Assembly: GCA_016432545.1 (NCBI GenBank)
Contig: CP066694.1
Location: 620,001-684,000, forward strand
Direction: 5' to 3'
Length of the DNA: 64,000 nt
Source of the DNA: an archaeon
GTDB taxonomy: Archaea > Thermoproteota > Nitrososphaeria > Nitrososphaerales > Gagatemarchaeaceae
Part shown: one piece after another, positions 2,812 through 40,441 of the stretch
Layout of the letters: every line of letters begins with the position of its first letter
Position numbering within the stretch: position 1 is the stretch's first letter
Translations under genes and position numbers: made by a program
The notes under the pieces: generated by a model
Database searches by the model: none
What the model saw: the letters and a program-made list of their open reading frames with translations, nothing else
Told to the model about the DNA's origin: nothing

Positions 2812-4260
2812 CTAGCCAGCTCCGATGAGTCCGGCAAGGGTCGGAGAGACCTCTTCCACCTGCTCCTTGAGCAGGTTCTGGTAGTACTGCAGGATGATGT
2901 CGCACATCAGGAGTATGCCTATGCCCGAGCCGAAGACCCCGAAGAGGTCCGAGACCCCGGCCACGAGGCCTATCATTATGCCTCCGATTATGGTCAACGT
3001 CGGGATGTACCTGTTGAGGACCTGCTCTATCGAGAGGCCGGTCCTGCGGAACCCTGGGACCTGGACGTTGGCGTCCATCAGGTTCTTCGCCACCGCCCTC
3101 GGGTTGAGGCCGCCGATCTCGACCCAGAGCCGGGCGAAGAGGACCGCCATGCCGACCAGGTAGAGCAGGTAGATCGCCGCGTGGATTGGGTTCGTCACAG
3201 TGTCCTCGACCCCCTGGGGCGCGGTCATGTAGTAGACGAGGCCCCCGTTAGGGAACTGACTCTGGGTCCCGTTGACTGCCGCCGGCCAGCTCCCGATGTA
3301 CTTCAGCCACCACGACGGGTTGGAGCTCTGATAGTTGTAGAGGATCCTCGTGAAGAAGGTGATGTTCGCGCTGAGCGCAGACACGAGGATGACCGGAATG
3401 TTGGAGACGTAGAGGAGCTTGATGGGGTAGACTCCTTGGAAGCCTCTGTACTTCACGGAGGTGATCGGGAGCTCGATCCTGATTCCCTCGATGTAGACTA
3501 TGACCAGGAGCATCACCAGGGTAAGGGCGAATGTGAGGAGGCTCGGGTAGCGAAACTGCCGGACGAGGATGTCGGAGACGTTGTTGCTGAAGAGGGAAGA
3601 GAGGAGCGCTGGGAGGAAGCCGAAGATCTCAGGAGGCTGTCCGATCGTGATGGGGGAGAAGGTGTACCACATTACTGTCTGGCAGACTCCCGCCAAGATG
3701 AAGAGGCTGACGCCGCTCCCCAGGCCCCATCCCTTCTGAATCATCTCGTCCAGGAGAAGGACGAAGAGGCTCGCGATGAAGAGCTGGATGAAGATCACGA
3801 TGTCCTGGTTGGGAGTGAGGCAGTTGCTCGTGACGGTGGCGCTGCAGGGGAAGCCGAGCGCACCGCCGAGTATGTAGGCGAGGGACTCGCCCACTATCAC
3901 TATCAGAGTGAGGAACTTCGTCGCGGAGCCGAAGATCGCCCTGTCAGCAGGGTCGTTCATCTTCAGCTTGATGATGTCGCTGCCCACGAGAAGCTGCAGG
4001 ATCAGGCCTGAGGTGACGATGGGCCCTATTCCCAGCTCCATCAGGGTTCCCTGGGTCGAGGCGAAGACGACCCTGAGGAAGGCTAGCTGGTCCTGCTGGT
4101 GCCCCGGCCCGCCGAACCCGTAGAGCGGGGTCGTCGCCATTACAAGGTAGGCGATGAGCGCGAAGCCGGTCCAGATGAAGCGCTCGTTGAGGCTGGGTTT
4201 GCGCTCTGGTTTGGGGATCTCCGGCAGCACGGTCCCTACGTTCTTGATGAACTCGCGCAT
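2812..4260 (-). CDS. secY: Preprotein translocase subunit SecY
   Basis: Channel subunit of the Sec translocon in the cytoplasmic membrane. 482 aa, near the usual archaeal length, with about ten hydrophobic helices, an early plug-type loop (TTPLYGFGGPGHQQD) and the conserved turn LGIGPIVTSGLILQLL after it. ATG at 4260 is preferred; a TTG at 4269 adds three residues. It follows uL15 and precedes adk, the standard spc arrangement. The 449-residue open frame on the opposite strand here is a shadow. Confidence 0.96.
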   Translation of the reverse strand: MREFIKNVGTVLPEIPKPERKPSLNERFIWTGFALIAYLVMATTPLYGFGGPGHQQDQLAFLRVVFASTQGTLMELGIGPIVTSGLILQLLVGSDIIKLKMNDPADRAIFGSATKFLTLIVIVGESLAYILGGALGFPCSATVTSNCLTPNQDIVIFIQLFIASLFVLLLDEMIQKGWGLGSGVSLFILAGVCQTVMWYTFSPITIGQPPEIFGFLPALLSSLFSNNVSDILVRQFRYPSLLTFALTLVMLLVIVYIEGIRIELPITSVKYRGFQGVYPIKLLYVSNIPVILVSALSANITFFTRILYNYQSSNPSWWLKYIGSWPAAVNGTQSQFPNGGLVYYMTAPQGVEDTVTNPIHAAIYLLYLVGMAVLFARLWVEIGGLNPRAVAKNLMDANVQVPGFRRTGLSIEQVLNRYIPTLTIIGGIMIGLVAGVSDLFGVFGSGIGILLMCDIILQYYQNLLKEQVEEVSPTLAGLIGAG

Positions 4261-4684: not shown

Positions 4685-5149
4685 CTACATCATCCTCCTC
4701 ACGATCTCTTCGAGCTTGGGGTTCTTCCCGAGGATCCCGTTCTCGGAGGCCTGGCGCCTCATGGACCTCCTGAACCCTCCCTTGGGCGGGGCGAGGCGGA
4801 AGTATGGGCGGATGCCTCCCACGGCCGTGAGCCTGAGGCCTTCCTTTAGCATGCGCCCGGCCATCTCCTCGTGGCTCTTGAACCCGAGCTCCTTGAGCGA
4901 GGCGGCGTCCAGCTCCTTGGTCTCGGTGACCATCCCGCGCTTCTTCAGGAGGGAGGCGAGGAAGTCGGCATCGAGGTCTGACCACGCCACGAAGTCTTTG
5001 CAGAGCTTGAGCATCCCGACTGTGTTCGGGTCGTCGGTGACTACCGACGCTGAGAACCTTCGGGCAACCTTGAGCTCCTCGAGGGCCTTTCTGACCGGGC
5101 CCGGGGAGTTGATCGCTCCGTGGAGGTTGAGCACGAGGAGGAGAGCCAT
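4685..5149 (-). CDS. rpl30: 50S ribosomal protein uL30
   Basis: 154 aa, the long archaeal form (bacterial L30 is about 60 aa). It opens with an LLLVLNLHGAINSPGPVRKALEELKV core. ATG at 5149 is preceded by GGTGAT as a ribosome-binding site, just after the uS5 stop. The open frame runs much further upstream, but that part is an out-of-frame shadow of uS5. Confidence 0.94.
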   Translation of the reverse strand: MALLLVLNLHGAINSPGPVRKALEELKVARRFSASVVTDDPNTVGMLKLCKDFVAWSDLDADFLASLLKKRGMVTETKELDAASLKELGFKSHEEMAGRMLKEGLRLTAVGGIRPYFRLAPPKGGFRRSMRRQASENGILGKNPKLEEIVRRMM

Positions 5150-38490: not shown

Positions 38491-38616
38491 CGGGCCCGGT
38501 GGGATTCGAACCCACGACATGCTGGTGACTCCGGTCGGGCATAAGAGCCAGCCGATCTAGGTAGTCCTCTCTAACCTGGCTTCTCGCAGGATTTTCCTGC
38601 TCTGAGCCACGGGCCC
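38491..38616 (-). tRNA. tRNA-Lys(CTT) with three introns
   Basis: Acceptor GGGCCCG pairs with CGGGCCC, and the T arm reads GTGGG-TTCGAAT-CCCAC. A normal 75-base tRNA emerges when three insertions are removed. The first is about 22 bases in the D loop (38,582-38,603), containing the hairpin GCAGGA-AAA-TCCTGC. The second is 14 bases between positions 24 and 25 (38,555-38,568). The third is 15 bases at the canonical 37/38 site (38,527-38,541). The spliced D loop is AGCCAGGTTA, the anticodon stem GCTGG/CCAGC, and the loop CTCTTAA with anticodon CTT. CCA is not encoded. Exact D-loop junction can shift by one or two bases. Confidence 0.88.
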
Positions 38617-38642: not shown

Positions 38643-39311
38643 TTAAAGCGTTATCGGTGGCGGAGTGGACTTGTACCTCGGTCCGATGACCTCCATGAAT
38701 TTGGCTATTTCTAGTTGAGAAGTAACCCTCAGAGTGTAGACCCCGTGCTTCTCGGTGAGCCTGTTGCAGAGTATACCGAACCTTATCAGCTCGTCATGAA
38801 TCTGGTTCATCAAAGTCTTGAGCTTCATTCGTATCTGCAACGACAGTAGGTTATCGTAGACCCTTGCATGTTGGTTGTACGCCTTAGAATATCGTCGATA
38901 GAGCGATCCTTCCGCATGATAGACCCCTCTAATGCATCGAGAGGTGTATCCTTTCTTGAATATGACTCTTGGTATCATCGCGTCTGCTTTCTTCCCGATT
39001 GGTAGGCCCAGCCCCGAGAGATATGTGACGAGCTCTTTGTCGTTGATGTGATATCGCGTTGTGTTGTCATTTCGCAAGTACAAACGACCACTGACGCCGA
39101 AGGTCGTTTCCATCGTTGGTTTTACGAACTCTTCGTAGTACCAAAATTCTGACTTGTGGGCAGTGAACGCCACGACGTTTGACTCATGCCGTCCGTGAAG
39201 TCTCCGACTCAGGCATCCGTCTCCAAGATGAAGCCCGATTACCTCGGCGAGGTCAGGCGTAACGTCCGGGGGCACGTTCAATGACCGAAGTTGAACATAG
39301 CTGAATTTCAA
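38643..39311 (-). CDS. LAGLIDADG-family homing endonuclease
   Basis: 222 aa. Two LAGLIDADG-type helices: VIGLHLGDGCLSR near residue 24 and CIRGVYHAEGSLYRR near 123, each with the acidic metal ligand, so a single-chain double-motif enzyme. The DNA is clearly more AT-rich than its neighbours, a sign of transfer. It ends 26 bases upstream of the tRNA-Lys gene on the same strand and is not inside an intron in this window. TTG start. It appears intact. Confidence 0.85.
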   Translation of the reverse strand: MKFSYVQLRSLNVPPDVTPDLAEVIGLHLGDGCLSRRLHGRHESNVVAFTAHKSEFWYYEEFVKPTMETTFGVSGRLYLRNDNTTRYHINDKELVTYLSGLGLPIGKKADAMIPRVIFKKGYTSRCIRGVYHAEGSLYRRYSKAYNQHARVYDNLLSLQIRMKLKTLMNQIHDELIRFGILCNRLTEKHGVYTLRVTSQLEIAKFMEVIGPRYKSTPPPITL

Positions 39312-39400: not shown

Positions 39401-40441
39401 ATGGCCAGACTAACCTTCGTCGGCCTCGGATTGGGCCCCAGGGGCATAAGCCTCGAGGGCGTCGAGGAGCTCCGAACCGCGGACGTCGTCTACCTAGAGT
39501 ACTACACGACCCCCCACGAGCCGACCCTGCTCCGAGAGCTGCAGAGCGCGACCGGGGCCAAGATCACGGTCGTCGACAGGGACTTTGTCGAGGACGGAAG
39601 GAGGATCCTCGAAGAGGCGGGCACGAAGAAGGTGGCTCTCGCGGTCCTGGGGGACCCGATGATCGCGACCACGCACGACGACCTGAGGACGAGGGCGATC
39701 AGGGCTGGCGTGGAAACCACTGTCGTCCACTCGGCCAGCATAGCGTCGGCCGCGGCCAGCGCGTCAGGCCTTCACTACTACAAGTTCTCGAGGACCACGA
39801 CCGTCACCAGGGAGTCGGTCAACAAGCTCTCTCAGGTGTACCACCTGCTGCACCAGAACCTCCTCGAGGGGGCCCACACTCTCCTGCTGTTGGAGTACGA
39901 CCAGCAGAGCGGCGAAGGGGTCTCGCCGGCGGACGCGGTCGCGGGGCTCCTGCTGGCAGAGGCGAACTTCAAGCGAGGAGTGGTGACCGAGGAGACCTTC
40001 GGCCTGGTGGAGTCCAGGCTGGGGAGGGAGAACTCTGCCATGGCCGGTGGGTCGTTCGCTGAGCTGGGGAGGAAGGAGTTCGGGGATTCGCCCCACTCCC
40101 TTGTCGTGCCTGGCAAGCTCCACTTCACAGAGGTCGAGTCGGTCTCGGCGATCTTCTCCCTGGCCCCGGAGAGCGTGCGCGGGAACTCGGACTCGGTCCT
40201 CAGGACAGCGCAGAGCCTCGTTCCGAAGTACGTGGAGAAGACGAGGAAGGCGCTCTCAGGCGCGGCATCGAAGCTGGGCCCGTCGTATTCAGCTGTGTTG
40301 GAGAACGCGGAGCTCTACCTGAGGGACGCGGAGAGGAACCTCGCGGAGGGGGAGGACGAGATCGCGATGCTCAACGTGGGCTACGCAGAGGGGCTTCTGG
40401 ACGCGCTCGGCTTCGCCGGCCTGGTCAAGGTGGAGTGGTGA
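39401..40441 (+). CDS. dph5: Diphthine synthase Dph5 fused to a DUF357 domain
   Basis: 346 aa. Residues 1 to about 255 are Dph5, the S-adenosylmethionine-dependent methylase of diphthamide synthesis on EF-2 (FVGLGLGPRGISLEGVEEL; VLGDPMIATTHDDLRTRA; GLHYYKFSRTTTV). Residues about 265-346 are an alpha-helical DUF357 domain (ENAELYLRDAERNLAEGEDE; YAEGLLDALGFAGLVKV), normally a separate archaeal protein. ATG start with TATA-like TTGATATACC about 25-30 bases upstream. Overlaps the next gene as TGATG. Confidence 0.9.
   Translation: MARLTFVGLGLGPRGISLEGVEELRTADVVYLEYYTTPHEPTLLRELQSATGAKITVVDRDFVEDGRRILEEAGTKKVALAVLGDPMIATTHDDLRTRAIRAGVETTVVHSASIASAAASASGLHYYKFSRTTTVTRESVNKLSQVYHLLHQNLLEGAHTLLLLEYDQQSGEGVSPADAVAGLLLAEANFKRGVVTEETFGLVESRLGRENSAMAGGSFAELGRKEFGDSPHSLVVPGKLHFTEVESVSAIFSLAPESVRGNSDSVLRTAQSLVPKYVEKTRKALSGAASKLGPSYSAVLENAELYLRDAERNLAEGEDEIAMLNVGYAEGLLDALGFAGLVKVEW

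Follow-up and report, generated by a model that had tools for sequence, protein, structure and literature searches.

How a tRNA gene broken by three introns can still yield a working tRNA, and what brings such introns in, are the questions raised by a short locus in the genome of a member of the Gagatemarchaeaceae. For archaeal tRNA introns at unusual positions, integrases and transposition have been put forward as the source, and the agent has rarely been caught. We analysed the locus in a stretch of 64,000 nucleotides (the window; contig CP066694.1, positions 620,001 to 684,000) and compared it with its counterparts in relatives, which are mostly metagenome assemblies. The tRNA gene and its parts are as follows.

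38491–38616, minus strand (read 38616 to 38491): pre-tRNA-Lys(CTT) gene, 126 nt (Rfam, intron enumeration, syntenic orthologues)
38602–38616, minus strand: exon 1, tRNA nt 1–15 (enumeration and relatives)
38580–38601, minus strand: intron 1, 22 nt, AGCAGGAAAATCCTGCGAGAAG, site 15/16 in the D loop (relaxed BHB)
38569–38579, minus strand: exon 2, tRNA nt 16–24 (enumeration and relatives)
38555–38568, minus strand: intron 2, 14 nt, AGGACTACCTAGAT, site 24/25 (central helix TTAG/CTAG, relaxed BHB)
38542–38554, minus strand: exon 3, tRNA nt 25–37, with anticodon CTT at 38545–38543 (enumeration)
38527–38541, minus strand: intron 3, 15 nt, TGCCCGACCGGAGTC, canonical site 37/38 (strict 3-4-3 BHB, CTCT/GGAG)
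38491–38526, minus strand: exon 4, tRNA nt 38–73 (enumeration and relatives)
38643–38648, minus strand: CTTTAA, likely TATA box of the tRNA-Lys gene (putative promoter role)

Rfam RF00005 matched exactly 38491–38616 on the minus strand, with 37.8 bits (gathering score 29). An independent enumeration, which allowed up to three introns per gene and scored cloverleaf and bulge-helix-bulge (BHB) features, placed one intron after tRNA nt 15 (22 nt long), one after nt 24 (14 nt) and one after nt 37 (15 nt). Their removal gives a mature tRNA of 75 nt, GGGCCCGTGGCTCAGCCAGGTTAGAGCGGCTGGCTCTTAACCAGCATGTCGTGGGTTCGAATCCCACCGGGCCCG, with anticodon CTT and with perfect acceptor, T and anticodon stems. The sequence-only reading had proposed this anticodon, this mature length and three introns of about these lengths, one of them in the D loop and one at 24/25, all of which the enumeration bore out; it gave neither the strand, nor the adjacent LAGLIDADG gene, nor the other intron sets of neighbouring species. 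A 20-nt first intron, leaving a 12-nt D loop, scored slightly higher in the enumeration but was excluded because relatives without that intron have the D loop AGCCAGGTTA.

Each of the junctions can form a BHB motif, strict for intron 3 and relaxed, with 3–4 central pairs, for introns 1 and 2. When the entire pre-tRNA is folded, the minimum-energy structure contains the strict motif. Intron 1 forms its own hairpin (GCAGGA/TCCTGC), and its BHB is one central pair short and lies ~6 kcal/mol above the minimum-energy fold. In the full precursor, the relaxed motifs at 15/16 and 24/25 cost ~5–6 kcal/mol. The cost of the 24/25 motif falls to 1.5 kcal/mol when intron 1 has been removed, which suggests an order of splicing.

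Introns at non-canonical sites had led to the prediction of a broad-specificity splicing endonuclease, and the genome agrees with it. The EndA alpha subunit (L028) carries the catalytic Y/H/K and the lysine of the crenarchaea-specific loop, its K40 aligning with K44 of that loop in A. pernix (alignment to 3p1z/3ajv), while the second subunit (L029) has lost the catalytic His. Judged by sequence, the splicing endonuclease is thus of the two-subunit alpha/beta type with the crenarchaea-specific-loop lysine, a residue tied to cleavage of relaxed BHB motifs (PMC6379350). The RtcB ligase is present in the same genome.

Introns were counted in 30 tRNA genes of this genome whose acceptor and T arm are clean; 20 of these genes hold 37 introns in all, 11–65 nt long, or ~1.2 introns per gene in this subset, which is incomplete, with at least eight further genes present and uncounted. 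Published values are 0.84 introns per tRNA gene in Thermoproteales and 0.21 in archaea overall (PMC8450103). The tRNA-Val(GAC) gene (L051; G000:C1:826551 region) also has three predicted introns, and tRNA-Trp(CCA) (L055) is interrupted by 65 nt at 37/38 and by 34 nt in the D loop; such a length could accommodate a guide RNA, a situation known from other archaea. Two isolated Gly-like 3' tRNA pieces (L058 and L076; G000:C1:1054434 and 1460770) consist of a T arm and acceptor ending in CGACCGCA, with no recognisable 5' half; they could be what is left of attachment sites, or else belong to genes with many interruptions.

The three introns had been taken as a hint of Thermoproteales, an assignment that does not hold, as the host belongs to the Gagatemarchaeaceae (Nitrososphaerales, Thaumarchaeota). 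Multi-intron tRNA genes of Thermoproteales (Pyrobaculum) are treated in PMC8450103 and in Sugahara 2007 and 2008, as cited in PMC4090602. The present genome resembles them in that a single tRNA gene can hold as many as three BHB introns, that canonical sites are used along with non-canonical ones, and that the endonuclease is of the alpha/beta kind. It differs in that the host is a soil or groundwater thaumarchaeote and that the tRNA is paired with an endonuclease gene. Sites 15/16 and 24/25 are absent from the example sites given in PMC4090602, and 24/25 is known in Caldiarchaeum.

The surroundings of the gene allowed the same locus to be followed across species. Two neighbours are relevant here.

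38643–39311, minus strand: LAG-A, LAGLIDADG homing endonuclease gene, 222 aa from TTG (Pfam, profile, AlphaFold/Foldseek)
39401–40441, plus strand: conserved neighbour with TP_methylase and DUF357, called DphB (synteny and tree marker)

The nearest named records of DphB are Thaumarchaeota/Nitrososphaerales assemblies, including Candidatus Gagatemarchaeum stordalenia, and tRNA-Lys(CTT) adjoins DphB at this syntenic place in ~35 relatives. Their tRNA-Lys genes have zero (L151), one (L154, L156), two or three introns, at sites 15/16, 22/23, 24/25, 37/38, ~43/44 (L163) and 53/54, five or six sites in all, in varying combinations, the D-arm site of the automatic caller being uncertain by one to a few nt in L107, L131, L133/L134, L147 and L148. 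Each intron of the window is missing from some relatives: intron 1 from L154, L156, L128, L135 and others, intron 2 from L135–L138, L146 and L157, and intron 3 from L129, L131 and L132. Two combinations recur. Set A comprises introns at 15/16, 24/25 and 37/38, the last ending in CCGGAGTC, and was found in the window, L127, L139 and L145. Set B comprises an intron at 22/23 or none there, a 37/38 intron of the form GCTAGC..TGGGAGTC and one at 53/54, and was found in L128, L130, L135–L138 and many others. Removal of the introns nearly always gives the same 75-nt tRNA. Since introns come and go while exons stay near-identical in ~35 relatives, the introns are real and the gene is no pseudogene.

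The same comparison bears on whether the copy in the window is degenerating, with lysine AAG codons read by another tRNA. The unspliced gene does escape ARAGORN, which called no tRNA at 38491–38616. However, its stems are perfect, its exons are conserved in relatives whose introns diverge, and a pattern search of the 1,504,237-base single-contig genome (37/38 intron of up to ~30 nt allowed, T arm uninterrupted) found no second tRNA-Lys(CTT); the sole other match lies in the tRNA-Glu(TTC) gene. A second complete gene was what the sequence-only reading had named as speaking against the locus, so that this result favours function. We therefore rejected decay as hardly credible, and regard it as near certain, from sequence comparison, that 38616–38491 is a working tRNA-Lys(CTT) gene with three introns spliced by EndA.

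Two other genomes carry more than one copy. One (G033; L083/L225, C3:103.3–104.7 kb) has two tRNA-Lys(CTT) copies ~1.3 kb apart, the downstream one having lost its 5' acceptor strand, and the 412-aa ORF between them had no Pfam match. Another (G034; L082, L124, L126) has three intron-free copies, with one pair on a short contig.

What accompanies the tRNA on its 5' side is a likely source of the variation in introns. LAG-A lies on the same strand, 26 nt upstream, and the last three bases of the CTTTAA motif are the stop codon of its ORF; this overlap recurs in L131 and L145 (26 nt) and in L163 (27 nt). The protein matches Pfam PF14528 at 7e-5 and, by profile, I-DmoI at 4.5e-11. I-DmoI was also the best PDB match in Foldseek of its AlphaFold model (pLDDT 87.6), and two LAGLIDADG motifs (LGDG, HAEGS) keep the acidic residues D31 and E134 in the alignment. 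Accordingly modelled, 38643–39311 encodes a predicted LAGLIDADG homing endonuclease with the I-DmoI fold. The archaeal enzyme I-DmoI shares this fold and the two motifs and is encoded inside an rRNA intron, whereas the LAG-A gene is located neither in the tRNA nor in an intron.

Maturases are known among LAGLIDADG proteins, and one of them, bI3 maturase, is a Foldseek match of LAG-A, so that the protein might instead act on RNA, as a maturase or splicing helper for the neighbouring pre-tRNA. EndA and RtcB, however, suffice for BHB introns. Moreover, close relatives that share the introns have LAG-A in broken form or lack it, both acidic residues are kept, and some tRNAs next to LAGLIDADG genes have no intron. 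Hence, we consider a role in splicing very improbable and treat LAG-A as a putative DNA endonuclease.

Between tRNA-Lys and DphB, LAG-A is intact in the window, L131, L145, L147, L155 and L163, frameshifted in L132, L150 and L156, and absent from the slot elsewhere; at one fixed place it thus occurs sporadically as an intact, degraded or missing gene. A second branch, LAG-B, ~25% identical, lies on the 3' side of tRNA-Lys in L128 and L130. On a tree of the DphB gene only, LAG-A carriers are scattered. The sisters L131 and L146 (support 100/98) differ in both respects: L131 has LAG-A and introns at 15/16 and at a second D-arm site, L146 has no LAG and introns at 37/38 and 53/54. Because LAG-A divergence roughly tracks species divergence, most copies may reflect an old vertical presence with many losses. 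No relatives of LAG-A were found in viral contigs, and in the order outside Gagatemarchaeaceae the LAG-A profile matched in four genomes only, always in intein-like long open frames.

Matches to the LAG profile also lie beside tRNA-Leu(TAA) (L217, L218, L224), tRNA-Ser(GCT) (L223), tRNA-Leu(GAG) (L222) and tRNA-Phe (L219). As an independent sample, we took 18 other free-standing PF14528 ORFs of up to 400 aa among the matches listed. In total, 13 of these 18 have a tRNA gene no more than 200 bp away: Ala (L228), Gly (L229, L232), iMet (L231), Val (L237), Ser (L233, L234, L239, L241, L244) and Tyr (L235, L242, L243). Eight of the neighbours came from the first scan and five from the closer look that it prompted. 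Control windows from the same genomes contained a clear tRNA in one case out of 20, and were scanned with the main parts of the same pipeline (combined automatic scan) without a closer manual look. With an estimated neighbour rate of 4.7%, the binomial probability is p ~4e-14 for 13/18, and the true figure is weaker because the genomes share ancestry. Inteins had a tRNA neighbour in 0/19 cases, an unfair control given their shorter flanks.

Five free-standing LAGLIDADG genes in other families of the class had no convincing tRNA alongside, apart from one low-scoring ARAGORN call of tRNA-Met (L248), so that the association looks specific to Gagatemarchaeaceae on the sequences compared. The other free-standing LAGLIDADG genes of the window's genome (L177, L178, L180, L183, L185) had no tRNA found alongside. 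In three genomes (L235, L242, L243), multi-intron tRNA-Tyr(GTA) genes stand tail to tail with LAGLIDADG genes, one intron being apparently inside the T loop. In the open-access literature, which the search covered, LAGLIDADG genes next to thaumarchaeal tRNAs did not turn up in any report.

The 24/25 intron of set A occurs in 7/9 LAG-A loci vs 4/24 loci without LAG-A (Fisher p = 0.002), which is weak support because the counts were read by hand and the relatives are not independent. Intron-bearing tRNA-Lys genes without LAG are common (L127, L129, L139), so that introns and LAG are not obligately linked. Conversely, the tRNAs for Ser in L239, Gly in L232 and Leu(GAG) in L222 have a LAG neighbour and no intron.

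Four loci retain fragments of a disrupted resident tRNA on the flanks of the endonuclease-tRNA pair; the intact copy there has introns different from those of the resident. In L150, resident nt 1–28 with a set-B-like intron (4854–4898) are followed by broken LAG-A, an intact tRNA with 15/16 and 24/25 introns (from 4090) and a T-arm piece (3920–3938). L145 has an intact three-intron tRNA and then a 3' piece of set B (3557–3636). In L128, an intact tRNA with a 53/54 intron is followed by LAG-B and by the last 26 bp of tRNA-Lys (3962–3987), which lack that intron; L130 is similar and more decayed, with its piece at 3977–4000. The arrangement recurs at a tRNA-Leu locus (L224), where 25 nt of a disrupted tRNA-Leu precede the endonuclease on its upstream side. 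At the locus in the window, such a remnant is absent. By their sequence, the remnants in L150, L145, L128 and L130 point to replacement of a resident gene.

An ordinary multi-intron tRNA might simply have an unrelated LAGLIDADG neighbour, or one carried as a passenger by elements that integrate at tRNAs via integrases. Genes for tRNAs are classic integration sites, and the introns persist without LAG. In Caldiarchaeum subterraneum, the tRNA-Thr(GGU) locus shows a 5' fragment (nt 1–27), an insertion with one ORF and an intact tRNA that has acquired an intron at 24/25; its authors took the ORF for a putative recombinase and put forward a plasmid integrase model to explain the intron gain (PMC3293823). 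This layout is nearly the same as in L150 and L224. Here the ORF is a LAGLIDADG gene, and several tRNAs and both flanks are involved. L128 and L130, however, have a LAGLIDADG ORF alone between intact tRNA and remnant, and L150 has just broken LAG-A and the tRNA between its remnants, so there is no integrase at these places. Together with the 13/18 independently chosen ORFs at tRNA genes (among the matches listed), at least six different tRNAs, this makes the unrelated-neighbour or passenger explanation unlikely.

Homing and exchange best account together for the remnants, the sporadic distribution and the association with tRNAs, and for this reason we infer that tRNA genes are likely homing targets of LAGLIDADG endonucleases, which exchange them for copies with introns. 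The transcript is almost certainly cut at three BHB motifs by the alpha/beta splicing endonuclease, and its exons are joined, presumably by RtcB. In the proposed homing mechanism, the LAGLIDADG gene and the tRNA would behave as one compact cassette, whose endonuclease would recognise and cut tRNA-Lys(CTT) genes. Repair would install the endonuclease and the intact tRNA with its own intron set, while pieces of the displaced resident gene would remain. Later the endonuclease would decay and be lost, and the introns would persist as footprints. We consider this joint explanation, a functional three-intron tRNA-Lys spliced by EndA plus homing of a LAGLIDADG/tRNA cassette, reasonably probable.

The closest functional parallel is SegB, a GIY-YIG protein encoded in phage genomes, whereas the genes described here have a LAGLIDADG fold, cellular archaeal chromosomes as their location and intron-bearing alleles as their partners. 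SegB of T-even phages is a free-standing homing endonuclease beside tRNA genes that was reported to cut within tRNA-containing sequence (PMC13096335); for LAG-A, cleavage is putative.

That introns shield the incoming tRNA copy from cleavage is offered only as a hypothesis, because some LAG-adjacent tRNAs are intron-less and one split resident had an intron nearby: the resident of L150 was broken despite an intron at 22/23 near the break, and hence an intron does not always protect. A stronger version, in which homing LAGLIDADGs bring immunity-giving introns and repeated rounds with differing targets left three introns as scars of homing, is tentative and seems to us somewhat doubtful. If it were true, homing would have left behind many of the non-canonical tRNA introns of archaea. 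At a single tRNA locus, a few dozen genomes display intron turnover, an endonuclease arriving, decaying and vanishing, and pieces of displaced genes. Homing beside a tRNA would give tRNA introns a means of spreading, and one that can be tested.
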